Of a DNA stretch of 64,000 nt, positions 2,640 to 28,811 are shown piece by piece. Position 1 is the stretch's first letter, and each line of letters starts with the position of its first letter. The stretch comes from Desulfocapsa sp. (GTDB taxonomy: Bacteria > Desulfobacterota > Desulfobulbia > Desulfobulbales > Desulfocapsaceae), in assembly GCA_030145625.1 (NCBI GenBank), contig JAQYVF010000014.1, forward strand, positions 1-64,000, given 5' to 3'. The notes beneath the pieces were generated by a model. The model searched no databases. It was not told the DNA's origin and saw only the letters and a program-made list of their open reading frames with translations. The translations under genes were made by a program, and so were the position numbers.

Positions 2640-2784
2640 TAGGCCACCTTGCAAAATTGCCTTTTCACCCAAACTCTTCGTTATAAGAAAAATATTATCC
2701 TCAGAATATCAAATATATGCCTGCGGTAAAATTTTTTTCATGCCTCGATTTTGAACGAAAATTCTAATTTTTCAAGGTACCCTA
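2640..2784. mobile_element. Foldback MITE-like repeat, copy 2
   Basis: A 145-bp copy of the element at 7-149, beginning TAGGCCACCTTGC and ending CAAGGTACCCTA with TA borders. It sits between the 3' end of the minus-strand envelope operon and nfo. The CTA at its right end (2782-2784) is read as the TAG stop codon of the DUF5329 gene, so the insertion has set or replaced that gene's terminus. Confidence 0.75.
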
Positions 2785-3159
2785 CAATGATTCTTTTTGT
2801 TTCTGCTCTTTCACTGACTCCCTGTGATACGTCAGGGCTTCCTCTAACCACTGTTTGGACGGTAACTTTTTCTTATCTGCACAACGAACCTGATATTGTC
2901 TTCGTGAGAGACTGGACTTTGAGGCAATTTTATCGATAAAGTCCTCTGCTGTTTTGATTCGGCGTTTGGCATGATTGTATTTCATTTCCAGGTGTTCTCT
3001 GGCTTCGTTGGACTGATGCTCATCACCGTTGCGGATAAAAATACAGCCGCTTTCACCCAGGTAGGAGAGCAGATAATTGATTTCTTCGTTGTCTGCAGCA
3101 AGGGAAAAATTTCCAATAAATAACAATAGAAGTATTAAGGCGAGCTGGACTTTTTTCAT
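2782..3159 (-). CDS. DUF5329 family secreted protein
   Basis: A 125-residue protein with a Sec signal peptide (hydrophobic residues about 5-20, cleavage likely after LAA). The mature part matches the pattern of DUF5329: YLLSYLGESGCIFIRNG, a conserved REHL.MKYNHAKRRIKTAEDFI stretch, then VRC and KQWLEEAL. Members are small periplasmic proteins of unknown function. Its start overlaps the stop of the upstream EEP gene by 4 bp, so translation is coupled and it is the last gene of the eight-gene operon. Its TAG stop lies in the terminal base pairs of a MITE, so the native C-terminus may have been slightly changed. Confidence 0.8.
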   Translation of the reverse strand: MKKVQLALILLLLFIGNFSLAADNEEINYLLSYLGESGCIFIRNGDEHQSNEAREHLEMKYNHAKRRIKTAEDFIDKIASKSSLSRRQYQVRCADKKKLPSKQWLEEALTYHRESVKEQKQKESL

Positions 3160-4094
3160 GGTATTATTACTACGTTCGTTTCGTTGGTTTTCTCGATTGT
3201 GCTCAGCCGGAAGGTGACAGATATTGGATTATGATCCGAGGATGTTACTTGATGGACGGCATGACTGACAGGTTCCAGTCCACGATAGAGAATCTGGTCC
3301 ACCGGATCACCAAAAAAGAGAGTCCGGCCCCCTTCTGCAAAATTCAGAATTTGTAACGAAAGGTCCTCCGCCAGTTGCATCATAATCTCTGTTCGTTTTT
3401 CACTCCAGTTGTTAAAATCTCCGGCCAGAATAATCGGGCCGTCATGTTTTGTTAAAATGTCCCGCAGGCCATCAAGTTGATCCTGGTAGGCTCCAGTGCC
3501 AAGGGAAATGTTGATACCATGAATATTTGCCACCAGAAGTTCATCTATTGAATCTGCGATGTTATATTTGCTGATGAGGATAGTTTTTGGCAGGGTGATA
3601 AGCGGCTCGCTGTGGCGCAGGCCACAAGTGTAAAGATCCTGTACTGTGGATGCCACCAGTACTCCCGTGTCTTCCCCTTTGTATTTGAAGGCGCTGTTTA
3701 AATTCCAGTACAGATTCTTCTCTTGCAGCATTGCCTGAAGTTCAGCATTTAATGTTGCCTCCTGCAGGAAAATAATATCTTTTCCATGACTGAGCCGAAA
3801 AAAGTCGATACCCCAGTTTTGACGCTGTTCTTTATAGATGTTCCAGTCAAAGATGGATATGGAGTCAGGGGAAAGTCCTGGTCGTGGTGGAGTTGATTGC
3901 TGCTCATCTGGAGCGGTTTCTGTGCAGCTCCCGTTGCTTCGAGTCAGCGGGGTGGTCCTTGTTGCCGAAACAAGTTGTTCCTGCACCGGGATAAATGCGC
4001 AACTGAAGAAGGTCAAACAGAGAACTGCGGATAAGAGGATAGAGGCCGGGAACCGTATAGATTTAGCCCAATTTTTTAGATTTAATAATTGCAT
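3156..4094 (-). CDS. Endonuclease/exonuclease/phosphatase (EEP) family protein, exported
   Basis: A 312-residue protein with an N-terminal hydrophobic segment (about 17-32, ending FFSC, a weak lipobox) and an EEP domain from about residue 78. The catalytic landmarks of the fold are in order: FDWNIYK, FLQEA, ANIHG, LAGDFNNWS, DQILYRG and SSDHNPI. These supply the divalent metal, the general acid/base Asp-His pair and the phosphate site. EEP enzymes hydrolyse phosphodiesters in nucleic acids, inositol phosphates or sphingomyelin; an exported member beside a phospholipase-D lipoprotein makes a lipid or extracellular nucleic-acid substrate more likely, but this is inference. It starts 4 bp after the PLD stop and overlaps DUF5329. 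Confidence 0.85.
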   Translation of the reverse strand: MQLLNLKNWAKSIRFPASILLSAVLCLTFFSCAFIPVQEQLVSATRTTPLTRSNGSCTETAPDEQQSTPPRPGLSPDSISIFDWNIYKEQRQNWGIDFFRLSHGKDIIFLQEATLNAELQAMLQEKNLYWNLNSAFKYKGEDTGVLVASTVQDLYTCGLRHSEPLITLPKTILISKYNIADSIDELLVANIHGINISLGTGAYQDQLDGLRDILTKHDGPIILAGDFNNWSEKRTEIMMQLAEDLSLQILNFAEGGRTLFFGDPVDQILYRGLEPVSHAVHQVTSSDHNPISVTFRLSTIEKTNETNVVIIP

Positions 4095-4098
4095 GATA

Positions 4099-5709
4099 TC
4101 AGAGCTGTGATTCGATGGGGAGGAGGGTCATGAGTCCTATGGCGAAACGTCGCCAGAAGCCGGTGTGCGGATCAGTTGTCCAGACTCGTTCTTCATCGTC
4201 TTCTATTCCGTGCCAGGAAATGAACTCCATGCCTTCTTCATCGGTTTGTAGGTCAAGACGAAAGGCCATGGTTTTCGTGATATAGTCAAATCCATTGGCC
4301 ATGGTGTCGGCAACCTCAGGAGAGTTGACTATGATGCCAATTTCGGTGTTTTCGATAATGGAGCGTGGATCAAGGTTCAGGGAACCGACAAAGACCTGCT
4401 TTCTGTCAAAGACGAAGGATTTGGCATGAAGACTGGCCTTTAATGAACCCGAATCTCCTTTTTTTTCCTTGCGCTGCTCCTTGCTGAGAACTTTACTCAT
4501 CTCATAGAGTTCAACACCCGCCCGAAGCAGACTACTACGGTACTTCGCATATCCGGCATGGACTATGCCTACATCGGTTGAGGCGAGTGAGTTGGTCAAG
4601 ATACGTACACGTACACCACTTTTACTTAAATCTGCAAGAAACTTGGTGCCTGCTTTTCCCGGCACAAAATAGGGCGAAAAAATCAGAAATTCTCTCTCAA
4701 GCCCTTCAAGAAAGGGCTTGATCTGAAAAGATAAGGTGTGAGCAGGGTTTATGGTATAGCTTTGCAGCTTTTTTGGATTATCGGCAAGTACCTGGGCCTT
4801 TCCCCAATGGAATACCACCTTGTTGTTTCGTATAGTATTGGCAAGACGGGAGTTGGAAAGTGATTGCAGGTATTCTGTAACCAATTTTTGGCTATGATAC
4901 TCAGCCAGCCTACGGCGACCCTTTTCGATGGCATTTTCATTGACCAGGTCCGGCCGGAGCAGGGCAATGGGATAGGACATGTCAGAGTTCCAGTACTGGT
5001 CAAATGAGGCAGATACCTCTTTTACCACAGGCCCTATGGCCAGGATATCAAGGTCGGCAAAGGCAAGGGTGGGATCTGCTTCAAAATATTCGTTGCCGAT
5101 ATTCCGTCCGCCTACGATGGTAGCCTGATTATCTACGGTGAAGGATTTATTGTGCATGCGACGGGTTACAGAGCCGAATCCGGTAATAAACTGTGAGCTT
5201 CGCAGTGCATTGCGGCTGAATGGGTTGAAGACGCGCAATCCAATATTGGGGTGGGCGGCAAGGGCAGACAGCGACTCATCCCGCTTTTCCAGATCCATGT
5301 CATCAATGAGGATTCGAACCCTAATACCTCGGTCGGCCGCCTTGATCAGCTGCTCGCCAAAAAGGTTGCCGGTGAGATCATTATGGATCATATAATATTG
5401 GGCATCAATACTCCGCTCTGCTCCCTGAGCCAACAGGGCTCTGGCGGTAAAGGCATCCAAACCATTGGTGAGCAGGAAAAAACCGGATTCTTCAGAGTGG
5501 TCTTTTTTCTGGGCGTTGTATCCTTTTCCTATTCTGGTGTCGGCAGTGTCCTGCAGGGCATAGCTCTTGGGGGAACTGGTATTCGGGGGCAGGGAGGAGG
5601 CACAGCCGCCCAGTAACAGCAGGGTGCAGATAATAAGAAGGTAGTGTCTGCAATGAGATGGAATCATAAACATATAAAAATGGTATGTTGAACGTATAAG
5701 TAGTTTCAA
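4099..5709 (-). CDS. Phospholipase D / cardiolipin-synthase-like lipoprotein
   Basis: A protein of up to 536 residues with two HKD phosphodiesterase motifs: HNKSFTVD (about residues 186-193) followed by GGRNIG, and HAKSFVFD (about 430) followed by GSLNLDPRS. Both His-Lys-Asp sets are intact. A lipoprotein signal ends in LLGGC, so the enzyme is probably anchored in the envelope. Layout resembles ClsC-type or other PLD lipoproteins that hydrolyse or transfer phosphatidyl groups. The 5'-most start is a TTG four bases after the preceding gene's stop; ATG codons at 5673 and 5667 would still keep the signal peptide, and no ribosome-binding site decides between them. Part of the envelope operon. Confidence 0.88.
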   Translation of the reverse strand: MKLLIRSTYHFYMFMIPSHCRHYLLIICTLLLLGGCASSLPPNTSSPKSYALQDTADTRIGKGYNAQKKDHSEESGFFLLTNGLDAFTARALLAQGAERSIDAQYYMIHNDLTGNLFGEQLIKAADRGIRVRILIDDMDLEKRDESLSALAAHPNIGLRVFNPFSRNALRSSQFITGFGSVTRRMHNKSFTVDNQATIVGGRNIGNEYFEADPTLAFADLDILAIGPVVKEVSASFDQYWNSDMSYPIALLRPDLVNENAIEKGRRRLAEYHSQKLVTEYLQSLSNSRLANTIRNNKVVFHWGKAQVLADNPKKLQSYTINPAHTLSFQIKPFLEGLEREFLIFSPYFVPGKAGTKFLADLSKSGVRVRILTNSLASTDVGIVHAGYAKYRSSLLRAGVELYEMSKVLSKEQRKEKKGDSGSLKASLHAKSFVFDRKQVFVGSLNLDPRSIIENTEIGIIVNSPEVADTMANGFDYITKTMAFRLDLQTDEEGMEFISWHGIEDDEERVWTTDPHTGFWRRFAIGLMTLLPIESQL

Positions 5710-5713
5710 TGTA

Positions 5714-6865
5714 TTAATACACTTTCACCACAAATTCCATCTGCTCTCCCCGGATACGATTGACTACCAGAGGCCTCAGGGTTTTGCCATCTGGCCGAAT
5801 GGTAATTTTCCCCATAATCCCATCAAAGTCAACAGTGTCACGTATCATGGCATTCACACATTCCCTGTCTGCGGGATCTTGACAACGGTTCATGGCCTGC
5901 AGTAAAATGGCGATTCCTTCAAAGCCGGTGGCAGGGAAAGAGCTCTTGTTGCCCTTGAAGAGTGAATGGTAAACCTTTGCGACCTTTTTCCCTGCTGGAG
6001 TCATTTCTATGGTATTGCTGTACATATCTATAGCCAGCAGTCCATCAAGATGACCAATGTCTTCCTGGTGCCGGGCAAGAACAATGGATAATAAACCGTC
6101 CCCCGTCATAACTTCGGGAGTCCATCCTATTTTTTCTGCAGCTTTGGAGATTGTGATGACATCTTCTGCTGTCACCGGCAGGTAGAGTAACTGGACATTT
6201 TCTTCACGAAGGTGTGTCACTATTATATCATAATCAACTGTCTCGGCTACTATTGGAATCACGTCGGTGATCTGGCCTTCGATTGAACGAAACTTGCGTA
6301 TAAATTCATCGGCAAGGGAGCTGGAGTGAAAACTGTTTGGATTGTTGAAAACAGCTACCCGGTCAAGCAGCAGCTCATCGCGAACAAAGAGGGCGGCAAC
6401 TTTCCCCTGAAAAGTATTATCAAAACAGATCTGACTGACATATTGTGTGTCTTTACTGATATCCGAGTGAGTGGCCAGTAAAACCAGTACCGGTATCTGG
6501 TGCTGGTCTGCAATGGAATTTACAGCCAGAGCTGAAGCACTGGTCGACAGAAGAATGACCGCAGACACGTTATCCGAATCTACCAACTTTCTGAAGGCCT
6601 TGAGAGTGAGTTCCGGATTGTTTTGGTCATCTTCAATCCGCAGTTTAATAGCATCGCCGTTATCAAGATAGGGATGTAGGTGCAGCGCTGTTTGAATTCC
6701 TTTCAAAGTGTCTTCTCCCAAGGCCTGTTCCGGGCCACTCATTGGTCCGATTACTCCAACTTTTATGGTGGTGCCGCTTGGTGTAATTGGCGATTGTTCT
6801 CCGCTACAACCCGACAAGAGGAGAAGGAGTAAGATGATAAGGATGAGATAAGCTGTTTTTTTCAT
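5714..6865 (-). CDS. ABC-type branched-chain amino-acid-like substrate-binding lipoprotein
   Basis: A 383-residue type-I periplasmic binding protein of the LivJ-like Peripla_BP_6 family. A lipobox LLLLSGC at about residue 20 indicates membrane anchoring. After it comes the usual opening KVGVIGPMSGPEQALGED, then alternating lobes with AVILLSTSASALAV and the hinge region near VMTGDGLLS. No ABC permease or ATPase genes are adjacent, so it may be an orphan receptor or a sensor-like binding protein rather than part of a transporter. It lies 6 bp after the DUF389 fusion gene and 4 bp before the PLD gene, inside the operon. The ligand is unknown. Confidence 0.85.
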   Translation of the reverse strand: MKKTAYLILIILLLLLLSGCSGEQSPITPSGTTIKVGVIGPMSGPEQALGEDTLKGIQTALHLHPYLDNGDAIKLRIEDDQNNPELTLKAFRKLVDSDNVSAVILLSTSASALAVNSIADQHQIPVLVLLATHSDISKDTQYVSQICFDNTFQGKVAALFVRDELLLDRVAVFNNPNSFHSSSLADEFIRKFRSIEGQITDVIPIVAETVDYDIIVTHLREENVQLLYLPVTAEDVITISKAAEKIGWTPEVMTGDGLLSIVLARHQEDIGHLDGLLAIDMYSNTIEMTPAGKKVAKVYHSLFKGNKSSFPATGFEGIAILLQAMNRCQDPADRECVNAMIRDTVDFDGIMGKITIRPDGKTLRPLVVNRIRGEQMEFVVKVY

Positions 6866-6871
6866 GAGCTC

Positions 6872-8764
6872 CTACGGAATGAAAATAGTTTGCACTCTGA
6901 TATCAAGGGCATCGGTAAAGTTGGATTCAATCTTTTTTCTCAGTTGGTTGAGATCCTTTCTGGTCAGCTGTTCACGTACCAGGACACGTACAAAAAGGAG
7001 ATCCTTCTCCCTTTGCTGAACAAGATCTGCCCGCTGGACAATGAGATACTTGTCGTTGATCAGAAAGCGTTCCTGCTGCCAGTTTTTTTCAATCACTGTT
7101 GTCTCAACAAGATTGCGGTAGGAGAGATAGAGGGGGATAGTAATGCAAACCAGAAGCAGCGCCACAAAGGCAAGGCCCCGTTTGTCGCGCACCACCGGGG
7201 AATAGCCAAGTACCCGAAACGTTATGGTCGCGGCCAGGGTAATACCGATAAGGTTGGTGGAAAAAAGGAGAAAGGCCTTGCCGAAAAATGCAAGATCTCC
7301 CATGCCAAGGCCAATTCCGGCAACGGCGAGGGGTGGGACAAGAGCCACGGCAATGGATACGCCGGCCAGACTCTGGAGGATTTCTTTATGTGATTTGGTA
7401 TAAGCCCCTGCTACACCGGCTACAATGGCTACAGCAAGGTCAAGCAGGCTGGGGTTGAGACGGGCCTGCATCTCCATGGTTATCGGTTTGTGGGGAAACA
7501 ATAATGATATGAGGCTGGCCGCTGACAGGGCGATGAGAATACCCACAGTTATGGTCAGAATTGAAGTCTTTGAGAGCTTTGTGTCATGACGCAACAGGCC
7601 CATGGCCAGAGCAACAATGGGTGCCATCAGAGGGGCAAGAAGCATGGCACCGATAACCACAGCTGAACTGGACAGATAGAGGCCAACAGCAGCGAGCATG
7701 GTGCTGAGTACCATCAGGACCAGATAGGTGGGCTGTATCTTTGCATCATCACGCAGGGACAGGAACAGATCCCGAAAGCGATCTTCGGATGCATACGAAA
7801 AAAATGGTATTCTTCTCTTTCCTGCTTTGACCAGCTCTTTGCCTGCCGGCAGGGACTTTATCTCTATTCTTTCATCTGATTCCTTGGAATTTTTAGTTGG
7901 TTGCCGTAATCGTTCTCCCACGTTGACACGCACTGCACTGGGAATTGTCTCACAGTGCAGTGGGGTCTGGGTTGTTTTTTCTCCATCTATTGCAACCTCA
8001 AGGGGCAGATTTGTTTCAATAGTGATTGTTGGACTCTTGATATAGCCGATACTGCTGGGAATTCTTTTCCGCTGCCCACGGCAGCGGAATGTCTGATACA
8101 GAAAGGTGAAATAGTCCGTTATGGAGATGGGAGCGGTAATCACCATGGAAATCATACCATCGGTGAGAGAGCTGTCATGGGAGATGAGTCTGGAGGCCAA
8201 TGTTCGTTCATGGCGTTGTATTATCATACAGCCGCTGGCAGCTGTTGTTATTTTTTTCCCACTTGCGGCAGTGAATTGAAAGGGAAGCAGTTTGAGACCA
8301 ATAAGGCGCTGCAAGGCGTTCGATGCTGCCTGTACCGGATTAATATTTATTGGGGCGTCTATCAGTGGGAGTCTGCCGATTGCAGCCTTGAAGACCAGTA
8401 GTTGTTTGTTGCAGAGGATGACATCCATGATCTGAGCATTCTCTTGTAAGGCAAGATCGAGGGCGGCATCAGTTTTTGGCGGCAAGTCATAGCAGTTTTT
8501 CAGATCTTTTTGTTTCGAGGTTGGAATGATGCCGATACTGAAGTCGAGTTCCATGGCCAGCGTCAAAACTGATTTGATCGCATGCAGGGGGGCTGCAATA
8601 ACAACATGATTGATTTGCAACAGGTAGTGTACCGGATTGTCGAGAAAGAGTTGCATGCTAACAGGTGTAATGTGACTGCCAAAAGGGTTCTCGACGACCT
8701 GCTTAATCAGCTCTTCTGTTTCAAAGACGTAAAGAAACAGTGCTGATTTTACATGTGATTCCAT
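6872..8764 (-). CDS. DUF389 membrane protein with N-terminal degenerate diacylglycerol-kinase-like domain
   Basis: A 630-residue fusion. Residues about 30-285 have the order of a DAGK/YegS-type lipid kinase: a strand-helix segment, SIGIIPTSKQKDLKNCYDL where active enzymes have IPxGTxNDFA, and late IDGEKTTQTPLH plus a P.AVRVNVG strand like the kinase C-lobe. The nucleotide-binding GGDGT motif is not recognisable; the matching place reads VVIAAPLHA, so kinase activity is doubtful. Residues about 340-560 form the DUF389/TIGR00341 membrane domain, with GAMLLAPLMAPIVALAMG and SLAGVSIAVALVPPLAVAGIG. DUF389 function is not established. It lies between AsmA and the binding lipoprotein in the operon. 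Confidence 0.8.
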   Translation of the reverse strand: MESHVKSALFLYVFETEELIKQVVENPFGSHITPVSMQLFLDNPVHYLLQINHVVIAAPLHAIKSVLTLAMELDFSIGIIPTSKQKDLKNCYDLPPKTDAALDLALQENAQIMDVILCNKQLLVFKAAIGRLPLIDAPININPVQAASNALQRLIGLKLLPFQFTAASGKKITTAASGCMIIQRHERTLASRLISHDSSLTDGMISMVITAPISITDYFTFLYQTFRCRGQRKRIPSSIGYIKSPTITIETNLPLEVAIDGEKTTQTPLHCETIPSAVRVNVGERLRQPTKNSKESDERIEIKSLPAGKELVKAGKRRIPFFSYASEDRFRDLFLSLRDDAKIQPTYLVLMVLSTMLAAVGLYLSSSAVVIGAMLLAPLMAPIVALAMGLLRHDTKLSKTSILTITVGILIALSAASLISLLFPHKPITMEMQARLNPSLLDLAVAIVAGVAGAYTKSHKEILQSLAGVSIAVALVPPLAVAGIGLGMGDLAFFGKAFLLFSTNLIGITLAATITFRVLGYSPVVRDKRGLAFVALLLVCITIPLYLSYRNLVETTVIEKNWQQERFLINDKYLIVQRADLVQQREKDLLFVRVLVREQLTRKDLNQLRKKIESNFTDALDIRVQTIFIP

Positions 8765-8785
8765 GATGCTTTCCTGTCAATATGG

Positions 8786-11224
8786 TTATTCTTCCAGGTT
8801 TCGGTTGTTCCATGCCATTCGACAGGCCTCTTTACCGTCGGCTGGTATTGTTCCGGAAAAGAGTCGACGCAGAGGAACATGAACCGGACTGGTGAGAAAA
8901 GAGGCGACAGTTGTTGTCAGGCGGAGTTTATTAATTCCAATGCCGAATTCCTCAAATGTGCCGGAGACGTTTACGGGGGTGGCCAGGCTGAAGAATTCCG
9001 GTCTTTTGGCTTTTGGTCTTACTTTCAGCTTGAGCTCTTCTGTCTTGAAATTAATATTTGCTTCGCCTTCGATACTCATATGAGTGGTATCCATGAAAAT
9101 GGTTCGCTCCTGCATCAGTCCCTCTTCCAGAGCAAAACTTGCCACCAGGCAGTTGATGATGGATGTAGGTTCTTCATCCACTTCCGACGCCAGGGCAGAT
9201 AAGAGGTTCACTGCCCACAGGTCAATAATACTTGCGTCAAAATTTACAGGGGCAAAGGCCAAATCAAAATGGCCTTTACCGTATGCAATGGTCTCTCGTA
9301 GAGCAGGGGCCGTGGAGTCCAGCTCAATATCCAGATTTAGAATACCACCCATGGTTGATTCCTGCTTGGTGCGGCGGGCCAGGATACCAAGGTCGAGATG
9401 GTCGATTATGGTGCCCAAATGGATCTGAGCCTCTGTTGCTGTTGGATAAAAGGAGAACTCAAGCTTTGCTGCCCCTTCGGCAAGATCGAGCTGCAGGGGG
9501 GCAATGGAAAAACGACCATCCTGCAAGGTAGAGTGCAGGAGGCCACTGCCCAGGGTATCTTTTCCAGAAAGGACTTTTGCCATTTTAATGGATACGGATC
9601 CGTTGAATTTGGCCAGGGATTCGGGAGAGAGTAGGGCGGGAACTTCTACTCTCTCTTCTGTGTTTTTAGGAGATTGCTGTTTGGCTTCTTCCCTGTTCTG
9701 AGCTGGCTCTTTTTCCCCTTCAGGACTCCAGTCACCAAGTGCGAAATCATTGATTTGCACGATATTGCTGACAAGCTGTACCTTGAACTCAGGTCTCTCG
9801 CCGCTGCTATTAAAACTCATATTTCCTGTTAGATCACTTGATCCGACCTTGATATCCAGGTTCGATAAGTCATAGCCGGTATCGGTGGTTGCAAATTGCG
9901 CATCAAGACTATAAGGACCAAAAGGAGGAAGATCAATCCTCAATAACTCATCAAGGCTGTTGAGGTGGTCACCTTTTAGGGTCATGCCCATATTGAAGTT
10001 ATTACTGGTGATGGGCATTTTCACGGCGCCGTTGAATGAGAGTTCTGTATCTGCGCCGGAAAAGGCAATGTTGATGGGCAGTTCACCAGGGGTACTGATG
10101 TAATTGACCAGAGGCATGCCCTGGATGGCAATGGTTACCGGGGTTGCATCAATTGTTCCATCTAAATTCAGGATAATGGGTTTATCGGGTTGTGCTTCAA
10201 TGTTTCCATTCAGTTCCTTGAAGGTCAGGCCGGAATCATTTTCTACGTCACCGACAATCCAGTTTCCACCTTGTAAGTTGAAATTGAATGTTGATTGGCT
10301 TACCAGCTCATGCAGGCTTGCTCCTTTGAGTTGGAGCGTTATTCCCAGCTCTTTCGTGGAGGCATTGATTCCTTCTGCTACCTTGAACCAGCTGAGAAGT
10401 GCACCGACATCCACCGCACCAATAAAAACATCAAAAGAGAGCTGCTGTTCCTTGTTCTCCTGCTCAAGCTTTCCTTTGGCAGAAAAAGGGGTTCCCGCAA
10501 TGTTCCCAGAAAGAGTGAGGGGCCATGGTTGTTCCTGCGGGTGAAGTGTATCCTTGGCTTTTGCATTCAGGTCAAAACTATAGCTTTGCTCCAGTACATT
10601 TCCTTTGGCCTGCAGATGAATAGATTTGTCTTTTTTTGCCTTCCCGCTGAGCTCATCGAGTTGGAAAGTGAGGGTTTTTTCTAATACAGTGTCTTGATAG
10701 CGTATTGCAATATCTTTCAAGGAGAGTGAATCAACAGCCTTGAATGCCAGGCCATTTGTTTTTTCCTTCTGAGAAGGGACCGCGCCTGTTTCTTTTGGCT
10801 TTTCTTTTTTGTCAGATGCTGCAAAAGACCAGTTGTTCTGGTCACCTTGACGACTTTCCAGGTTGACACTGACACCCTCTGCCGTGATTTCATCGATATA
10901 GATTTCTTTTTTGAGCAGATCAAACAGCCCCAATTGTAGGCGTACCAGTTTGACGGTGACAAAGTCCGGATTTCCCCAGCCCTGTGGATTGTTAATTTGT
11001 ACACTCTGCACTTCAATTCTTGGGTTCAGGGTGGGGAGGAGTTCAACGGATCCTGTTATGGTGACTTGGCGATCAAGTGCAGCTGAGGCTCCTTTTTCGA
11101 CCATCGGACGAATCTTGTCCAGATTAACGGTGAGACCCATGAGGGAGACCACGGTCAGAGCACCGAGGAGCAATATAACAGGAGTCAGAACGATAAGAGT
11201 GATCCAGCGGAGGAAGGATTTCAT
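8786..11224 (-). CDS. AsmA family protein
   Basis: An 812-residue protein with one N-terminal membrane helix (about residues 7-30) followed by a long periplasmic beta-rich region. The N-terminal part (VSLMGLTVNLDKIRPMVEKGASAALDRQVTITGSVE, listed as a landmark of the family start) and the C-terminal AsmA_2-like part from about 560 are recognisable. AsmA-like proteins (AsmA, YhdP, TamB) form extended grooves and are implicated in moving phospholipids between the inner and outer membranes. A low-complexity charged linker lies near residues 505-530. The gene starts 97 bp downstream of the K+ channel gene and ends 21 bp before the DUF389 fusion, so it is cotranscribed with it. Confidence 0.88.
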   Translation of the reverse strand: MKSFLRWITLIVLTPVILLLGALTVVSLMGLTVNLDKIRPMVEKGASAALDRQVTITGSVELLPTLNPRIEVQSVQINNPQGWGNPDFVTVKLVRLQLGLFDLLKKEIYIDEITAEGVSVNLESRQGDQNNWSFAASDKKEKPKETGAVPSQKEKTNGLAFKAVDSLSLKDIAIRYQDTVLEKTLTFQLDELSGKAKKDKSIHLQAKGNVLEQSYSFDLNAKAKDTLHPQEQPWPLTLSGNIAGTPFSAKGKLEQENKEQQLSFDVFIGAVDVGALLSWFKVAEGINASTKELGITLQLKGASLHELVSQSTFNFNLQGGNWIVGDVENDSGLTFKELNGNIEAQPDKPIILNLDGTIDATPVTIAIQGMPLVNYISTPGELPINIAFSGADTELSFNGAVKMPITSNNFNMGMTLKGDHLNSLDELLRIDLPPFGPYSLDAQFATTDTGYDLSNLDIKVGSSDLTGNMSFNSSGERPEFKVQLVSNIVQINDFALGDWSPEGEKEPAQNREEAKQQSPKNTEERVEVPALLSPESLAKFNGSVSIKMAKVLSGKDTLGSGLLHSTLQDGRFSIAPLQLDLAEGAAKLEFSFYPTATEAQIHLGTIIDHLDLGILARRTKQESTMGGILNLDIELDSTAPALRETIAYGKGHFDLAFAPVNFDASIIDLWAVNLLSALASEVDEEPTSIINCLVASFALEEGLMQERTIFMDTTHMSIEGEANINFKTEELKLKVRPKAKRPEFFSLATPVNVSGTFEEFGIGINKLRLTTTVASFLTSPVHVPLRRLFSGTIPADGKEACRMAWNNRNLEE

Positions 11225-11321
11225 GGGAATTTACCTCGATCTGTGGAGGAAGGGGAAGAAGAAATGTTTTCTGTCTAGACGCCTCAATTATTTGCCACGA
11301 TTTTCTATGGCTGATAGACTC

Positions 11322-12011
11322 TTAGGTTTCATCCTGTCCTGTGTTATGTTTGTCGGATACATGCATCCCAACCAGCCATGCCACAACAACGGCTGTGAAG
11401 AATTGCCCGAAGATTGCCTCCATCTGACAAAGTGAGGCCGCTCCAGGTGTTTGGGGGGTAATATCACCATATCCCAGGGTGGTGAGGGTAACAAAACTGA
11501 AATAATTAAAGGCATGAACCCTGTTTTCCTGCATATTTTCCAACAAAATACCGCTGTAGGCACCTGGGGTTATTTCATTCAGGAGTGCATAGAGCGAGCC
11601 CCAGAAGAGACCGAATATGAGGTAGAGGCTAAAGGTTGCGTAGAGCACGTTTCGTGTCACCTTGCGTGAATGGGCAATCTGCCACACATAGGAATACACA
11701 AGAAGGCCGAAATAGATGGCAAAGAGCAGGTAGGCGGCAACCCGACTAAAAGAGATAATGTCATAGATCCCAAGCCAGTAAAGTGCTAGCAGCGGCATGA
11801 GCAGGACCATGGCAGCAGAGCGTTCCTGCTGTTTTTTCTGCACTGTATAGATCGCAACAAACATGGCTACTGACAGCGATGCATGGGCATAAACAGCGAG
11901 AGATGGATAGGGGTCAAGAAAGGGACTGCCGACAATGTAGATCAAAAGGAAAAAAAGGAGATTTCTGAAACCGTGCCCCTCAATGGGGGGGCTTTTTTTA
12001 TGAGCAGTCAT
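11322..12011 (-). CDS. Two-pore-loop-type potassium channel family protein
   Basis: A 229-residue inner-membrane protein with about six hydrophobic helices and a single pore loop before the last one. The selectivity filter reads TLTTLGYGDITP (about residues 185-196), the standard K+ filter with GYGD. No large cytoplasmic RCK or cyclic-nucleotide domain follows, since only about ten residues remain after the last helix. The start codon lies two bases after the stop of the outer-membrane factor gene, so the two are cotranscribed. Potassium selectivity follows from the filter; gating is unknown. Confidence 0.88.
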   Translation of the reverse strand: MTAHKKSPPIEGHGFRNLLFFLLIYIVGSPFLDPYPSLAVYAHASLSVAMFVAIYTVQKKQQERSAAMVLLMPLLALYWLGIYDIISFSRVAAYLLFAIYFGLLVYSYVWQIAHSRKVTRNVLYATFSLYLIFGLFWGSLYALLNEITPGAYSGILLENMQENRVHAFNYFSFVTLTTLGYGDITPQTPGAASLCQMEAIFGQFFTAVVVAWLVGMHVSDKHNTGQDET

Positions 12012-12013
12012 GG

Positions 12014-13537
12014 TTAGTTATCCTCAGGGACTGGTTCTTTCAACATCTTCCCCCAATCTGTTCGTTCCTGCATCTTTTCTTTAACGGCCTCGGGGACAAA
12101 GTCGTGGCCAAGACGTATCTGCCAGCCCCCGCCAAGCGCCTTGTACAGGCCGATGAAGTCGGTTGCCATCTGTCCCTGGATCTGAGCGTATTGATCCTGT
12201 TTCTGGGTCAGTGCTCTGGTGGAATCGAGAACCCGCTGGTAATCGACAAATCCTTCTTCATATTGGAGTAGGGAAAGCTCTACGGACCTACTGGAGCTTG
12301 CCACTCCCTGATTGAGGTATTTTGCTTCCCTTTGTACATAGAGAAGAGCGCTCATGCTGTCTTCTACTTCGCGGGCAGCATTGAGTACCGTATTTTGATA
12401 ATTGGTGATGAGCTGTTCCAGGCGAGCATCCTGGATCCGTACCTGATTTTTTATTCGTCCATAGTTTAAGATGTTCCATTTGAAAGCCGGACCAAATGAA
12501 TAGCTGAAAGTGTTTGCCTCAAAAATATCGCCGAGGCTGTTTTCACCGATATCATTGGCGCTCCATCCCAAGGAGCCAAAGAGCGTAAAACTCGGGTATA
12601 ATTCAGTGACAGCGACACCTACCTGGGCACTCTGAGCAGCTGTCTGCATCTCGGCTTTGCGAATATCCGGACGTCTCCGCAGGAGGTCAGCGGGAACGCC
12701 GACAGCTATTTCAGGAGAAGCCGCTGGAATTGAACCCGTTACAGTAAGAAATTCGCTCAGATCTCCCGGTACTCTTCCCAAAAGAATGGCGAGCCCGTTG
12801 CGGTTTTTCTGCAAGGTGCTTTGCAGGTTTGGTATTGTTGCAAGGGTTGAACTCAAGAGCGTCTTTGCCTGCTGCACATCAAGTTCAGTGACAGTACCGG
12901 CTTCAAACTGATGCATGACCAGTTGCAGACCATTTTGTTGGAGTGTACTGTTTTTCCTGGCCAGACGGATGCGCTCTTCCAAGGTACGAATAGAAGTGTA
13001 CGTGCGGGCTACCTCCGCCGTAAGGGTGACAAGGATATCATCGTAATCAGCGATACTTGCCAACAGGTTGGCATCTGCAGATTCAATGGAACGGCTGAAT
13101 TTTCCCCAGAAGTCTATTTCCCAGCCAACATCAAAGCCAATGGATGCTGCATTGTAATAACGATCCGAGGCAGGGCCGGTGGTGCCGATGGTCATGGCGT
13201 CACCGTTCATTTCCTGCAGTTGGGGGTAGATATTTCCTTTGACCCGTCCCAGTTGAGCCCGGGCTTCAAGGATACGCAGGCCGGCAGTGCGCAGAGACAG
13301 ATTCTGCTCATAGGCCGCCTGGATCAGTTTGTCCAGGGTCGGATCATTGAAGAGCTTCCACCACTCTATGCTCTCCTCTTCTGATTGCTTTTGAAAAACT
13401 GCGTTTTCTCTCTCATTCCAGCTTTCCGGGAGTTCTGCCTCTGGAGGTCTGAAGTCGGGGCCGAGCATGGTGCAGCCACCAAAAGAAAACGCTGAAAGGC
13501 CGAGAAGACAAAGGGTGCTGAGTTGATAAAATTTCAT
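12014..13537 (-). CDS. Outer-membrane factor, NodT/OprM-type efflux lipoprotein
   Basis: A 507-residue TolC-superfamily lipoprotein. A lipobox FGGC is followed by the family opening MLGPDFRPPEAELPESW. Two outer-membrane efflux repeats follow, with the characteristic helix ends LRTAGLRILEARAQLG (first half) and AVGVPADLLRRRPDIRKAE (second half). Such proteins form the outer channel of tripartite RND pumps or secretion systems. No RND pump or membrane-fusion protein gene is adjacent, so the partner is elsewhere or different. It is the first gene of the eight-gene envelope run and lies 126 bp downstream of the AI-2E gene, so either gap could hold the operon promoter. Confidence 0.92.
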   Translation of the reverse strand: MKFYQLSTLCLLGLSAFSFGGCTMLGPDFRPPEAELPESWNERENAVFQKQSEEESIEWWKLFNDPTLDKLIQAAYEQNLSLRTAGLRILEARAQLGRVKGNIYPQLQEMNGDAMTIGTTGPASDRYYNAASIGFDVGWEIDFWGKFSRSIESADANLLASIADYDDILVTLTAEVARTYTSIRTLEERIRLARKNSTLQQNGLQLVMHQFEAGTVTELDVQQAKTLLSSTLATIPNLQSTLQKNRNGLAILLGRVPGDLSEFLTVTGSIPAASPEIAVGVPADLLRRRPDIRKAEMQTAAQSAQVGVAVTELYPSFTLFGSLGWSANDIGENSLGDIFEANTFSYSFGPAFKWNILNYGRIKNQVRIQDARLEQLITNYQNTVLNAAREVEDSMSALLYVQREAKYLNQGVASSSRSVELSLLQYEEGFVDYQRVLDSTRALTQKQDQYAQIQGQMATDFIGLYKALGGGWQIRLGHDFVPEAVKEKMQERTDWGKMLKEPVPEDN

Positions 13538-13663: not shown

Positions 13664-14740
13664 TCAATTATCGGTTTTTTCTTCAATCTCATCAAGCCAT
13701 GCCATAAATAAAGTATACATAATAGCAAGCACAACGGCACCGACAAAAAGACCGATAATACCGAAGAGCATCATACCACCCAGTGCGCCCAGGAGAATAA
13801 CCAGCATGGGGATATCAACGCCGCGTCCCATGAGCAGGGGTTTTAGGAAGCCGTCACTTGCACTGACAAAAAGACTCCAGATAAGAAAAATAACAGCTGG
13901 GGTGGTGTCGGCAACAGAAAAGACATAGGCGGCAACTGGTGCAAGGATAAGGATCGGCGGTAATTGACTGACTGCACAGACCAGCACCAATAGAGCCCAC
14001 AACCCCGCAGCGGGAACACCTACCAGTACCATGCCGATGGCGGAAAGGATTGCCTGAATCACTGCCACTCCAACAACACCCTGCATCACACCACGGATGG
14101 TGGCGGTGGCCAGGGAGGTGATTTCCGCTCCCTGCTCACCTGCAAAACGGGTAATGATTTTCTCGGAAATTGCAGAGCTCTTTTCTGCCTTGGCCAGAAA
14201 TACTCCGGCAATACAGGTTGAAATGATAACCATGAAGAGTCCCAAAACACCTCCGCCCACAGAGCCAAGCAGTGTCGTGGCTGCTGCTTTAAGCTGGGGG
14301 GCGAATTGTTTCAGGGCTGCTTCCAGATTTGTTGAAGAGAGTTGCCAGGCGTGATGGATTGACTCGCCAACAAAAGGCCAGTCGGCAACGTTTGATGGGG
14401 GAGGAGGGATAGCCAGTGTCTTGTTCTCCATTTGCTCCGAGATTGTCTGCACTGTCTCAATAGATTGCATGACAAGGAGAACAGATGGGATAATCAGTGC
14501 GGCGGTGATGAGCAGAACAAAAAGGACAGCTGCCAGTGACCTTCGTCCGCCAAGCTTTTTGGCAAGCCAGGCAATAAACGGTTCCAGGGCAACCGCCAGA
14601 ATGATTCCCCAGATAACCGGAATCATAAAGGGCTTTATCAGGAGAAAAGTCCAAATGACCATGATCCCGAGGATCGATAATTTTATAACCATTTCAATAA
14701 TATTTTTGGTGAAAACTGTATTGCTGTCTATGGTTTCCAT
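13664..14740 (-). CDS. AI-2E family transporter (PerM/YdiK type)
   Basis: A 358-residue polytopic inner-membrane protein with about eight helices and the AI-2E family order: VIWGIILAVALEPFIAWLAKKLGGRRSLAA near the N-terminus, a periplasmic helical segment around residues 120-170, and the C-terminal FGIIGLFVGAVVLAIMYTLF. Members export autoinducer-2 (TqsA) or act as Na+/H+ antiporters or permeases, so the substrate cannot be assigned. It is in the same direction as the envelope operon and may be cotranscribed with it. Confidence 0.9.
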   Translation of the reverse strand: METIDSNTVFTKNIIEMVIKLSILGIMVIWTFLLIKPFMIPVIWGIILAVALEPFIAWLAKKLGGRRSLAAVLFVLLITAALIIPSVLLVMQSIETVQTISEQMENKTLAIPPPPSNVADWPFVGESIHHAWQLSSTNLEAALKQFAPQLKAAATTLLGSVGGGVLGLFMVIISTCIAGVFLAKAEKSSAISEKIITRFAGEQGAEITSLATATIRGVMQGVVGVAVIQAILSAIGMVLVGVPAAGLWALLVLVCAVSQLPPILILAPVAAYVFSVADTTPAVIFLIWSLFVSASDGFLKPLLMGRGVDIPMLVILLGALGGMMLFGIIGLFVGAVVLAIMYTLFMAWLDEIEEKTDN

Positions 14741-20479: not shown

Positions 20480-21544
20480 TTATTTCTTCATCTCTGGCCG
20501 AATCCATTGGTGGCTGTACCAGAAGTAACGACTGCTTTTTGTATCCGGGGCAGTACAGTTGTATCGTGATCGGCCTTGAGGGAGTTCGTTTCTAGTCTGG
20601 ATCTTGAAGCGTTTTCCAGGTTCCAGCCACTGGATTTCCAGCTTCTTGTCGTTAAGGTAGCATGTTAACTGGCCAAGGTTGGCACTGGATGGTGCCAGGG
20701 TGACTGTCAGTTGTGGGCATTTTTCTGATGTCACTGGGTTGAGCGGTTGCTGTTCTACTACCGGCATGGCCAGAGAAAGGGCCTTTGTCCGAAATGCATT
20801 CATCTCGGCATACGCCTCTGCCACAGGGAAGCGGGGCAGGGCGCGTCTGTTGTTCAGCGAACTCACCCCACCTGAATTTTGGCCAAATCCAGTATATCCA
20901 AGGCTCTCAACAATGTCCATGAGTTCAAGGTTGTATTCGCCATAGGGGTAGGCAAAAAGAAGAGGGGCCTGGCCAAGTTGTTCCTGCAGTCGCATTTGGG
21001 CACCTGAGATCTCACTGGTCATTCGTTCTTTCCATGTCTCTAACGACTCCCCTGCTTTTTTCCTCACCAGGTAGTCATGGCTTTGGCCGTGGTTGGCAAA
21101 AATTGCCCCATTTTTCTGCATCTCCTGCATCTGCTGCCAGCTCATATAGGCTGGAATTTTCTGATCAACCACACCAGTTGCCACAAAGACCGTGAAGGGA
21201 TACCCCTTGGCCTTGAGACGGGGGTAGGCCTCTTTATATACTGAGAGATAGGCGTCATCTATGGTGATAGCTATGGTCTTATCAGGGAGTGGCTTGTTGT
21301 GTTTCAGGGCCTTGACAATTTCTTTCAGAGGAAGGACGGAAAAGCTATTTTTCTCAAAGAACTCAAGCTGCTCCTGAAACTGTTTAAGGCCTATGTTGGA
21401 GCTGGGATAGCGTGATTCGCCGAAACGGTGATACATGAAGATTACTGCCTGTGCTCCTTCCTGTTTGGCCAGGGCCGTCGGAGCAGGCAGCAAGGGGGAA
21501 AACAGGATCAAGAACCATAGAACAATGAGAGTTTGCATAATCAA
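20480..21544 (-). CDS. Secreted polysaccharide deacetylase (NodB domain) with C-terminal extension
   Basis: A 354-residue exported protein: signal peptide about 5-26, then a NodB/CE4 domain with the opening VIFMYHRFG, the metal and catalytic motif AITIDDAYLS, ANHGQSHDYL with the paired histidines, and FAYPYGEYN. About 90 residues follow that look like a small beta domain (QLTVTLAPSSANLGQL, WLEPGKRFKIQTRNELPQG). CE4 enzymes deacetylate N-acetylglucosamine polymers. It is divergent from pgaABCD, which encodes its own deacetylase PgaB, so it may work on the same polymer or on peptidoglycan. The intergenic region of 343 bp separates the two transcripts. Confidence 0.87.
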   Translation of the reverse strand: MIMQTLIVLWFLILFSPLLPAPTALAKQEGAQAVIFMYHRFGESRYPSSNIGLKQFQEQLEFFEKNSFSVLPLKEIVKALKHNKPLPDKTIAITIDDAYLSVYKEAYPRLKAKGYPFTVFVATGVVDQKIPAYMSWQQMQEMQKNGAIFANHGQSHDYLVRKKAGESLETWKERMTSEISGAQMRLQEQLGQAPLLFAYPYGEYNLELMDIVESLGYTGFGQNSGGVSSLNNRRALPRFPVAEAYAEMNAFRTKALSLAMPVVEQQPLNPVTSEKCPQLTVTLAPSSANLGQLTCYLNDKKLEIQWLEPGKRFKIQTRNELPQGRSRYNCTAPDTKSSRYFWYSHQWIRPEMKK

Positions 21545-21589
21545 TAGGTTGTTTGATTACCTTCCTGAGCATTTTTCTGCTTTTTTTTC

Positions 21590-21679
21590 TTACAGATTTT
21601 TGTTTTTCGGTTTCCCAAAAGCAAGCGTCGCTGGAATGATAAAAGCGAAAAGAAGCAAAACTATAAAGAGTTTCTTCAT
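21590..21679 (-). CDS. Possible small secreted peptide (29 residues)
   Basis: A minus-strand reading frame starting at the ATG 21679-21677 and ending TAA at 21592-21590. It encodes MKKLFIVLLLFAFIIPATLA followed by FGKPKNKNL, that is, a complete Sec signal peptide with a nine-residue basic tail. AGAGGA lies about 10 bases upstream of the ATG. It sits 45 bp upstream of, and in the same direction as, the deacetylase gene. No homologue is recognised. A signal-peptide-like frame of this length could arise by chance, so this is tentative. Confidence 0.35.
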   Translation of the reverse strand: MKKLFIVLLLFAFIIPATLAFGKPKNKNL

Positions 21680-21887
21680 ATGAGGCTATTCCTCTGGATA
21701 TTCAGGATTATTCAAAAAAACTTATTTATTATATCAGATATTCAGATCCATACAAGCCGATATGGATATTTTGTGTCACAGTTTGTTGCTAGGGCAAACG
21801 TAATAATTTGTATTAAGCAATTGAAAAAGTATAAGCTCATGAGAGATTCTCAAAAAATATAATTTATTTCTATTTCTCACTTGCGTA

Positions 21888-24800
21888 ATGAAATTTTATT
21901 TACCCTTCATTGTTGCCCTGCAACTGGTCGTCTTGTTTCCCTCTAACAGTTACGGGCTGCGTCTTTATACTCAGGATGATTATCAGGATGCCCGGGATAA
22001 GGCTGTGCGGACAGCCCGAGAGGGCGATTATAAGAGTGCGCTGGTCAGTCTCGGCCGACTTTTAGAACTTGAACCAGATAATCACGGTGCGCTCAATGAC
22101 TATATCACTATCCTGATATGGGATGAGCAATATAAAAAGGCATTGGTGTTTGTACCGAAACTGGATTTACACGAATTACCGGAATATGTTCTTCGTTCAT
22201 TAATCATTGCTGCTGACAAGGAAGATCAGTCAGGTATCTCTGACAGACTGGTTGCAGCATACTTCAGTCGTTATCCGGTTGTGCCGGAGAATACCCCTGA
22301 AGGGATTGAGGGGAAGAGTGCCTATGAGATGGCTCAGCTTACCTTTCGGGTTGGGATGCCTTTGACCTCGCTGAGTATTTTGAAGGTTCTCAATGAAACA
22401 GATCCTCAGAACCAGAAGATCCTGGCAGAGTATATTGCAGTTCTCAGTATGGAGAAACAGTATAAAAAGGCATTGGATCTTTTGCCGCAGCTTGACCTCC
22501 TCACTGCACCGGAATTTGCCTTTGCTGCCTTGATTAAAAGTGCCAGGAAGCTTGGCCGGGTTGAGGTGGAAGCTAAACTGCTCGAACACCTTCCCGGTAC
22601 AAGTTATGCATTACGTCACTATGCACAGGAAGGCTATGGGGCGGTTACTAAAGAAAATCATGAAACGAGCTTGCAGAGTCTTGCAAGGTTGTTGCAGCTT
22701 GAACCGGACAATCACGTTGCATTCAATGAGTATATCACTCTCCTGATCTTGGATAAACAATTTAACAGGGCCCTGGAGCTTCTTCCTCGGCTCGATCTGT
22801 ATAAGACACCGGAATATGTCTTACGTTCTTTGATTATTGCCGCCGAAAGAGAAAAGCGGGAGGATATATCGGAAAAACTGATAGCAATATACTTTAATCG
22901 CTATCCGGTGGTTCCGGCCAATACCCCTGAGCAGATCAAGGGCAAGACTGCCCGTGAGCTTGTACGTGATTTGAATCGACGCACTATGCCTCAAACCTCT
23001 AGGGAGATTTTAAAATTTCTTTATAAAAAAGATTCTCAGAATCAGGCGGTTCTGGCAGATTATATAGCTGCTCTCAGCAAGAACCGGCAGCATGAAGAGG
23101 CCTTGGCGCTTTTGACACAACTGGATCTTTCCAGTGCACCGGAATTTGCTTTTGATGCGCTTATTGAGAGTGCGGAGCAACTGGGAAAACCAGAAATTGA
23201 AGCAAAAATACTAGCCATCTATCGGCAACGTTTTTCAGCCCCTTCCGGTACAGCAAATCCTGTTGTTCCGGTTCCCGGTCAAGAAATAATCCATAAAAGC
23301 AAGAAAGTAACACCTCAGAATAGTTCTAAAACAAAGCAGCCAGCAGTTACTTCTTCTTACGAAGCTCGTATCAATCAGGCTCAGCGGTATCTTCGGGAAC
23401 AGGACTATGAAAAAGCCGAAGCGATCGTTTTGCCTATGTATTATGCCGGTGTAAAAGATACATCCCTGCTCAACACCTTGAGTCAACTTTTTGATGTGCA
23501 AAAGAAATATATGGAGGCTGCATATGTCTACCAGCAGCTTCTTGAGCTTGAACCAGGCAATGGTGGTGTGCGACGTCTTCTTGTACTTAACCTGTTTTAT
23601 GCCGGGGCTCCCTTTCGTGCCTTAGCATTTTTGCACAAAAAACCATCGCTGCTCAGTACGACTGAAACCAATAAAATTTTCATTGATACTCTTGCCTTTG
23701 GTCTGCGCTGGAGCCAATATACCCAGCCTCCAGGCACAAATCGTATGGATGAGTTGGATAAAATTCTGATAGAAATTGAACGCTCGATCCAGAAGATGCA
23801 GGAGCAGGATGACAACTATAATCTCACTCGTCTGCAAATGGATTACATCGTTGCGCTCCGAGAAAGAGGGCGAAGTGAAGAGGTGATTGGACAGTATAAT
23901 GTGTTGCTTTCGCAAGGTAAAACTGTTCCCGATTATGTCCTTCGTGAGGTGGCCAGTGCCTATCTTGACCAACAGCAACCTGAACATGGCAGAGATCTTT
24001 ATCTGCAGCTCCTTAAAAAAGATCCACACAGCTTTGAGCTGAAACAGGCCCTCTTCTATGCCTATTTTGATAATGGAGAGTATCAAAAGGGACTGGATTT
24101 GGTTCGCGAACTGGAAACAGCCACCCCGGTGTGGCGAAAAGATCACTCCGGTGACATCGTTAAAGACAACAATGAGAAACTGCAGGCCTCCATTTTGATG
24201 GCAAATGGGCTTGCCTACAGTGATGATCTGGTGGCAGCCCAGGGGCATTATAAAAAAATGGTCGCCATTGCCCCTTATAACCCGGAGCTGCGTGACAATC
24301 TGGCAATGGTTTACCGCTGGCGAGGTTGGCCGCAAAAGGCCTATGAGGAAATTGCCATCGGTAAGACCATAGAGCCGGATAATCTCTACCTTGGTATCAG
24401 TAATGGTAGAACATTAATGGAACTCTATCGTTTTCGGGAGGCAGAAGAACAGCTTGCCCGGGTCTATAAACAGGCACCGGAAAATAGACAGGTACAAAGA
24501 TTTCAGCAAGAGTATCACTTGCGAGATAAAAGAGAGTTTCTTATCTGGGTGGACAGTGGTAACTCAGACGCAGATGCAAGTGATCAGGGCAGTTCGGATT
24601 TCACTGTTGAATCCTATTTGTATGATAAATTTTACCACTACAACTTTCGTCCCTTTGTCCATCAATACTTTACCAAATCAGATTTTACGGAAGGAACCGG
24701 ACGGTATGAACGGATTGGTGTCGGCACGGAATATAAACGAAATCGCAATTCTTTTGGCGTTGAGCTGAACAGCAGTTATTCCGGCAGTAGTGATGCAGGT

Positions 24801-25403: not shown

Positions 25404-25425
25404 CAGTTGAACCCTCTCTCTGAAT

Positions 25426-27399: not shown

Positions 27400-27404
27400 T
27401 TCCT

Positions 27405-28667: not shown

Positions 28668-28811
28668 TGGCCACCTTGCAAAATTGCCTTTTCGCCCAAA
28701 CTCTTCGTTGTGAGAAGAATTTTATCCTCGGAATATCAAATATATGCCTGTGGTAAAATTTTTCTCATGCCTCAATTTTGAACGAAAAATCTAATTTTTC
28801 AAGGTCCCCTA
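28666..28811. mobile_element. Foldback MITE-like repeat, copy 3, inside pgaCD
   Basis: A 146-bp copy of the repeat at 7-149 and 2640-2784, running from the pgaC stop codon to the base before the pgaD ATG. The flanks both contain CTAATG (28664-28669 and 28809-28814), consistent with a TA or slightly longer target duplication. Its right end contributes AAGG (28801-28804) seven bases before the pgaD ATG, where a ribosome-binding site is expected. The hairpin could also dampen read-through within the operon. Confidence 0.78.

Follow-up and report, generated by a model that had tools for sequence, protein, structure and literature searches.

An eight-gene row and its DUF389 protein–lipoprotein pair

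The window, a stretch of 64,000 nucleotides of DNA from Desulfocapsa sp. (contig JAQYVF010000014.1, positions 1 to 64,000), carries a row of eight minus-strand genes between positions 2782 and 13537. Two adjacent members, which encode a DUF389 membrane protein with a lipid-kinase-like N-terminal half (N-half) and a binding lipoprotein, constitute the most conserved block of the row. The features of the row, from its upstream end, are the following.

12014-13537, minus strand: outer-membrane factor (OMF), a NodT-type lipoprotein (OEP/NodT); TIGR01845 341 bits, cut-off 210
11322-12011, minus strand: K+ channel (Ion_trans_2) with a TLGYGD filter; 42.7 bits
11225-11321, no strand: 97-bp gap between the AsmA and K+ channel genes; no HlyD/DUF2955 remnant found
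8786-11224, minus strand: AsmA-superfamily protein; Pfam AsmA 93.6 bits, gathering score 29.8
6872-8764, minus strand: DUF389 membrane protein with a lipid-kinase-like N-half; DUF389 131.1 bits, Pfam gathering score 23.9
5714-6865, minus strand: binding lipoprotein (Peripla_BP_6), Leu/Ile/Val-binding type; 145.8 bits, gathering score 31.7
4099-5709, minus strand: phospholipase-D superfamily (PLD) lipoprotein; PLDc_2 119.6 bits, HKD motifs HNKSFTVD and HAKSFVFD
3156-4094, minus strand: YafD-type endonuclease/exonuclease/phosphatase (EEP; Exo_endo_phos), likely a lipoprotein; NF003840 241.7 bits, cut-off 163
2782-3159, minus strand: DUF5329 protein with a signal peptide-like N-terminus; PF17263 121 bits

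The eight open reading frames (ORFs) are packed exactly as the original prediction had it, with gaps of 2, 97, 21, 6, 4 and 4 bp and one 4-bp overlap. Profile searches with Pfam and curated models upheld the families that it had assigned to all of them.

The pair was followed through a collection with one genome per species (84,980 species), scanned with a four-sequence alignment as query; the best 80 of the 483 DUF389 relatives form the locus sample. At 42 of these 80 loci the binding lipoprotein is encoded directly downstream of the DUF389 protein, and in 39 of the 42 the gap between the longest ORFs is only -26 to +25 bp. The lipoprotein was not found at the other 38 loci, 31 of which are readable for at least 1 kb downstream. 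Some loci are not independent: L033 and L037 are apparently on the same contig, and L034 and L043 are from the same genome region.

In a quick, midpoint-rooted tree of 76 rows, all 39 paired rows fall in one clade of 50 (Shimodaira–Hasegawa-like approximate likelihood ratio test support, SH-aLRT, 100). Loci with short or split DUF389 ORFs (L070, L071, L076, L095 and L106) were left out of the tree and of the conservation counts given below. The 11 unpaired rows of the clade are two contig-end cases (L042 and L053) and a nine-row gammaproteobacterial subclade, readable downstream in eight of nine cases, L081 ending at the contig. The 26 rows outside the clade are all unpaired; 25 are readable and L103 is not. 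If the contig-end rows are disregarded, the pairing can be explained by a single gain and a single loss. Because the paired clade mixes Thermodesulfobacteriota, Gammaproteobacteria, Campylobacterota and one record labelled Myxococcota, its composition suggests horizontal spread of the pair. Judged by the names of its carriers, the pair extends over several phyla and includes bacteria that reduce sulfate, oxidise sulfur or oxidise methane. Locus L095, outside the tree, is a contig of an ANME-2 archaeal metagenome-assembled genome and may be a binning error.

A census of the genes beside the pair covers 85 of the 121 ORFs listed at 38 pair loci; 36 were dropped by hand, mostly short and some longer, ORFs over 900 amino acids were excluded, and 25 of 88 families were displayed. 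Families matched more than once are AsmA (3), YhdP (3) and DUF748 (2), which are overlapping models, OEP (2), PLDc_2 with PLDc (2), Ion_trans_2 (2), LysE (2) and SelO (2). The remaining 79 families have one member each.

Architecture of the DUF389 protein and the binding lipoprotein

The AlphaFold model of the DUF389 protein (55 sequences) has a mean predicted local distance difference test score (pLDDT) of 80 and a predicted template modelling score (pTM) of 0.59. It is composed of an α/β N-half (about residues 1-290), seven membrane helices (about 345-364, 368-392, 395-422, 440-458, 464-488, 491-519 and 528-550) and a C-terminal α/β domain (566-628), hereafter the C-domain. Of the alignments used, A3 contains the window sequence and 54 of the 72 listed locus sequences, and A4 the window sequence and 38 of 39.

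The fold of the N-half is diacylglycerol kinase-like, as had been proposed: its profile matches a diacylglycerol kinase of the PDB with E 4.9e-13, Foldseek gives E 8.3e-15, and the model superposes on 2qvl with Z 21.8 and a root-mean-square deviation (rmsd) of 3.5 over 262 aligned residues. The motif GGDG[TS], which we take to be the nucleotide (ATP) motif of lipid kinases, is found in 0 of 76 sequences. An active lipid kinase was rejected on this ground, and the N-half is probably not a lipid kinase. The protein is also far below the lipid-kinase cut-off (TIGR00147, 29.7 against 118.65). Among the 55 sequences, D202 of the N-half is nearly invariant and D260 invariant.

Loops 2, 4 and 6 of the membrane part are net positive, loops 1 and 5 are not, and loop 3 is neutral. 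With seven helices and this distribution of charge, the N-half is predicted to be cytoplasmic and the C-domain periplasmic. Residues 325-526 align with the hydrosulfide channel 3tdx (Z 11.8, rmsd 4.4, 199 aligned), which is in the range seen for common helical arrangements. An hhalign comparison of DUF389 with the formate/nitrite (FNT) family, a weak test, gives E 0.64, weaker than for six control families; it included 12 script-picked FNT proteins, L207 and L208 probably being wrong ORFs, and controls with 0 to 17 added members. Identity with formate/nitrite channels was set aside, with one structural match and no support from the profile comparison. So was an internal repeat of the membrane part, since the match between its halves (hhalign E 0.022) is too weak to claim. 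The likeness to a hydrosulfide channel is intriguing in sulfate reducers, though sequence profiles lend it no support. A second DUF389 protein is encoded about 38 kb away (46910-48751, plus strand), beside a gene (44616-46160) that we take to be sulfatase-like; its N-half is different and presumably universal-stress-like.

The binding lipoprotein is modelled with a pLDDT of 93.5, and its closest profile match is the branched-chain amino-acid binding protein 3td9 (E 3.9e-67). That it is nearest to branched-chain amino-acid binders, and not to lipid carriers, counts against a lipid module. Three positions are kept: S109 in 40 of 41 sequences, T or S at position 132 in 41 of 41, and D256 in 41 of 41. 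By the alignment with 3td9, they correspond to the LivJ residues holding the amino-acid backbone; as these are the residues kept, a first guess is that the ligand may be amino-acid-like.

Conservation of the DUF389 protein was scored as agreement with a consensus built from 36 paired rows, in the order N-half/membrane part/C-domain. Three paired Campylobacterota give.55/.79/.62 (C-domain.61-.64), eight sister rows without the lipoprotein.54/.71/.38 (C-domain.33-.42) and 26 outside rows.52/.70/.19. The.38 mean excludes L081, which is broken in the C-domain, and becomes.35 if it is included. Pairwise C-domain identity is 44% for paired and 27% for unpaired rows, and differences are smaller elsewhere. 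Conservation is tied to the lipoprotein far more strongly in the C-domain than in the N-half, and slightly in the membrane part. This pattern would be compatible with a docking site for the lipoprotein on the C-domain.

Composition and surroundings of the row

The 4-bp gap ahead of the PLD gene depends on a TTG start at 5709. In-frame Met codons lie 12 and 14 residues further in, at 5673 and 5667, and would leave a gap of 40 or 46 bp; one of them is probably the true start, as they are nearer to the lipobox. The protein has two HKD motifs and stays under the cardiolipin synthase equivalog TIGR04265 (98.7, cut-off 290); the AsmA-superfamily protein is under the equivalog of AsmA itself (NF008091, 52.7 against 412). 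The EEP protein contains the motifs QEA, GDFN, SDHNP and FFSC. Single-sequence searches of solved structures returned no relatives of the EEP and DUF5329 proteins and one weak, partial match for the PLD protein. We take NF003840/PRK05421 to be YafD and the DUF5329 protein to be similar to E. coli YfeK.

The 97-bp gap is located where relatives have HlyD and/or DUF2955. Its tblastn search gave no significant match and no HlyD/DUF2955 remnant, and no gene for an HlyD adaptor or DUF2955 was found in the window at E 0.01.

We searched seven of the row families (OMF excluded) in 146 genomes of the order, many of whose assemblies are fragmented. By contig coordinates, no genome except the window's own has all seven together, so that the predicted co-occurrence of the eight families in the same order is not borne out. 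The DUF389 fusion with its N-half occurs in four genomes: the window's, G131 (73% identity), G123 (54%) and G004 (38%). Binding lipoproteins above 250 bits are found in 3 genomes, AsmA (E <= 1e-40) in 8, PLD (E <= 1e-40) in 16, DUF5329 in 20 and the K+ channel (E <= 1e-12) in 27. EEP passes its curated cut-off in 23 genomes and exceeds 235 bits, a line set after the scores were seen, in 12. The EEP and DUF5329 genes are adjacent in eight genomes (G000, G017, G068, G093, G123, G127, G131 and G145), which amounts to 8 of the 20 with DUF5329, 8 of the 23 with EEP above cut-off and 8 of the 12 with the best EEP. PLD joins them in three (G000, G093 and G017).

In G093, of the same genus, the order is CDF, AP endonuclease IV, DUF5329, EEP, PLD, K+ channel, fatty acid cis/trans isomerase (CTI), mutarotase-like gene and glycogen phosphorylase. 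Order and strands match those of the window, and CTI directly joins the stretch from K+ channel to DUF5329. This genome has no OMF, AsmA, DUF389 protein, binding lipoprotein, AI-2E, glucosaminidase/HU stretch or pga-like block there. Three further genomes of the genus differ again. A row of MscS, K+ channel, AsmA, a 76-residue ORF that matches PLD weakly (18 bits) and EEP is found in G104. G131 has DUF2955, AsmA (as two ORFs), the DUF389 protein and the binding lipoprotein, with EEP-DUF5329 on a separate contig. G143 has the K+ channel and AsmA on other contigs, AsmA beside a glucosaminidase. At L186:727-4609 this glucosaminidase, related to that of the window (476 bits), is placed just before AsmA (911 bits), a further rearranged link between genes of the window. 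An AI-2E fragment adjoins AsmA in G032. In G068, which belongs to another family, AI-2E is followed by OMF, K+ channel, HlyD and DUF2955. From the separate position of the blocks in these six genomes, the window's row reads as AI-2E-OMF-K+ channel (an efflux block), AsmA-DUF389-lipoprotein and PLD-EEP-DUF5329 put together. HlyD/DUF2955 would have been lost from the efflux block. A conserved eight-gene unit is not supported by the genome searches, which revealed blocks only and no shared order.

Close DUF389 relatives can stand without the rest: none of the other six genes is near those of L036 (74% identical; 6.5 kb readable upstream) and L038 (73%; 9.8 kb upstream and 2.6 kb downstream). At L035, the locus of the 38% identical fusion of G004, none of twelve other window proteins was matched within the 20 kb fetched. 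Desulfosediminicola flagellatus, whose DUF389 protein is 51% identical to the window's, has AI-2E, CTI, EEP, DUF5329, PLD, AsmA, the DUF389 protein and the lipoprotein within about 13 kb, ordered and oriented differently. Its 6.75 Mb contain 4 PLD and 3 AsmA genes, so that chance alone would place both kinds less than 10 kb from the pair with a probability of about 1.2% x 0.9%, or about 1 in 10,000. The estimate, made post hoc for PLD and AsmA only, becomes about 0.4% after the choice among 42 loci. Since D. flagellatus has so few copies of these genes and still holds them near the pair, linkage of the row families is more than chance in places.

The same-strand run extends upstream beyond 13537 with AI-2E, two unknown ORFs, a glucosaminidase, a gene presumed to be HU-like and CTI. 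Profile results are available for the following.

13664-14740, minus strand: AI-2E family (YdiK-like) membrane protein, 126 bp upstream of OMF; PF01594 136 bits
15176-16425, minus strand: two adjoining ORFs without a Pfam match; the first has a relative (158 bits) in L054
18009-20408, minus strand: CTI with a CAVCH heme-c-type motif, outside the eight; PF06934 877.9 bits

In L054, the relative of the first of the two ORFs is placed directly upstream of the DUF389 protein. Lipobox-like sequences are present on the OMF, binding protein, PLD, EEP and CTI, and the DUF5329 protein begins like an exported protein; many products of the cluster would therefore face the periplasm. CTI occurs in 31 of the 146 genomes and clusters with row genes in G093, in D. 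flagellatus and, upstream, in the window. According to PMC11727003, CTI is a heme-c enzyme of the periplasm and isomerises unsaturated fatty acids when cells are under stress; PMC11226057 reports YhdP, TamB and YdbH as mediators of phospholipid transport between the membranes of E. coli. From its gene families, the cluster may have a role in membrane homeostasis.

Genes for MscS channels recur near the K+ channel or CTI (L196:963-3389, L164:4473-5315 and L190:9565-10404), and in G027 (L166:2192-4444) a patatin-phospholipase/Omp85 protein adjoins the PLD gene. Elsewhere in the window, 20480-29249 is a pga-like block, apparently for poly-GlcNAc biosynthesis, with a polysaccharide deacetylase; it is absent at the same site in G093. 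The gene at 48845-49900 (minus strand) is, we presume, SelD-like. Its listed ORF starts late, and as an upstream in-frame TGA yields ASGUAAKL, it probably encodes a selenocysteine-containing selenophosphate synthetase.

Interpretation and comparison with known systems

All parts belong to known families, and the eight-gene row itself is a mosaic. We tentatively favour, with slightly less than even confidence, a lineage-specific composite putative operon that carries the pair as a DUF389 receptor or channel controlled by a periplasmic ligand, together with envelope-stress neighbours. By its family and conserved residues, the lipoprotein would bind a small amino-acid-like ligand in the periplasm and dock on the periplasmic C-domain of the DUF389 protein. 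Docking would determine which state the seven membrane helices adopt, and these would act as a channel, transporter or receptor. The cytoplasmic lipid-kinase-like half would be a regulatory domain and not an enzyme, reading a membrane lipid or a small cytoplasmic ligand. Judging from their families, the PLD and EEP lipoproteins, AsmA, the K+ channel and CTI may adjust periplasmic and membrane lipids and ions in envelope stress. It is somewhat unlikely, in our estimate, that the pair is an undescribed two-gene module of transmembrane signalling or gating, in which the lipoprotein acts on the C-domain, the core is channel-like and a pseudo-lipid-kinase reads or controls the state of membrane lipids.

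Several observations weigh against the favoured reading. The topology is based on helix count and loop charges, and loop 3 is not clearly periplasmic. The pairing history offers a single loss event only. Correlation of gene distances with the lipoprotein, tried as a docking test, was discarded: it peaks at the N-half (partial r.60, C-domain.40), and the unpaired sister rows depart somewhat further from the consensus in their membrane part too, so docking on the C-domain is not singled out. As to the neighbours, CTI in G143 adjoins AP endonuclease IV with no row genes between. The 13 other CTI neighbourhoods of the order (L187-L191, L193, L195 and L198-L203) contain none of the K+ channel, PLD, EEP, AsmA and DUF389 genes, and CTI was set aside as a general partner of the cluster. 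The lipid theme of the cluster is for this reason plausible and not general. Among the best 80 of 483 DUF389 loci, many of them on short contigs, AsmA occurs at 6, PLD at 6, OMF at 4, K+ channel at 4, AI-2E at 2, EEP at 1 and DUF5329 at 1. As CTI neighbourhoods and DUF389 loci seldom hold the other families, the lipid link of the pair is supported at few loci only.

Binding proteins serve some secondary transporters, and the pair could be a plain solute importer or channel, in which a DUF389 transporter receives its substrate, an amino acid or a small anion, from the lipoprotein and the lipid genes are unrelated passengers. The kinship of the lipoprotein with branched-chain amino-acid binders agrees with this, as do the very varied genes beside the pair, with LysE-type translocators as 2 of its 85 neighbours, the weak likeness of the membrane part to 3tdx and the faint alignment of its halves. 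Such an importer leaves the lipid-kinase-like half unexplained, and the FNT profile comparison, weaker than all six controls, speaks against it as well; we consider it rather unlikely. It is also conceivable, if improbable, that the site between the CDF efflux gene/AP endonuclease IV and glycogen phosphorylase is a gene island that collects functionally unrelated envelope genes by hitchhiking. The site differs strongly among G000, G093 and G143, the pga-like block is found only in the window among these three, and most CTI neighbourhoods fetched are without the other genes. Recurrence of blocks argues otherwise: AI-2E-OMF-K+ channel in G068, PLD-EEP-DUF5329 in G017 and the cluster of D. flagellatus, where PLD and AsmA near the pair are improbable by chance even after selection, by the post hoc estimate above.

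The original prediction, one lipid-sensing or lipid-moving envelope module made of all eight genes, survives in part. The HKD motifs of PLD, the EEP motifs, the diacylglycerol kinase fold and the links with CTI stand, while the families are mostly unlinked and the kinase motif is absent. Tight packing of the genes fits a single module, as does the gathering of six of the eight families with CTI and AI-2E in D. flagellatus, if in another order, and the short list of repeat neighbours of the pair includes AsmA-type, OEP, PLD and ion-channel families. With the seven searched families together in no other genome of the 146, L036 and L038 standing without the rest, and G093 having half of the row without AsmA, the DUF389 protein, the lipoprotein and OMF, we hold the module of eight to be quite improbable.

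In the literature searched, no paper was found with DUF389 in its title or abstract; PMC3702460 and PMC12419801 concern DUF3893 and DUF3892, and a search by TIGR names returned one soil-metagenome paper. This literature contains no description of a DUF389 protein that is paired with a binding lipoprotein and has a pseudo-lipid-kinase half. The conserved partner is a handle on DUF389, a widespread membrane family, since its ligand would lead directly to DUF389 function. If the favoured reading is true, a binding protein works with no ABC transporter beside it, and a lipid-kinase fold has been retained although its nucleotide motif is gone. The cluster as a whole bears on how envelope operons are assembled from exchangeable blocks.

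The DUF389 protein has its membrane domain in common with DUF389/TIGR00341 proteins and exceeds both the Pfam and TIGR00341 cut-offs. The window's second DUF389 protein differs in its N-half, and no Peripla_BP_6 gene was seen among the listed ORFs nearby. The N-half shares its fold with DgkB (2qv7, Z 21.2 over 267 residues) and YegS (2bon, Z 20.1 over 255); unlike them, the DUF389 protein is without GGDG[TS] in 76 of 76 sequences, is fused to a membrane domain and falls below lipid-kinase cut-offs. Its predicted membrane part (325-526) aligns with the formate/nitrite/hydrosulfide channels (3tdx, Z 11.8); the DUF389 protein adds a seventh helix and the C-domain, and the likeness is without sequence-profile support.

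The lipoprotein has the fold and family of LivJ-type binding proteins, along with S109 and D256, which we presume to match LivJ residues. In contrast to the LivHMGF ABC importers, ABC permease and ATPase genes are absent among the window's eight genes and AI-2E, and no ABC family is among the neighbours of the pair seen at least twice in the 85-ORF census, where families seen once are partly listed. The binding-protein-dependent receptor LuxP-LuxQ offers a further comparison. There, too, a binding protein in the periplasm acts from that side on a membrane protein whose output domain is cytoplasmic, as the lipoprotein would here. In the DUF389 system, the output domain would be a pseudo-lipid-kinase in place of a histidine kinase, and the membrane part would be DUF389.

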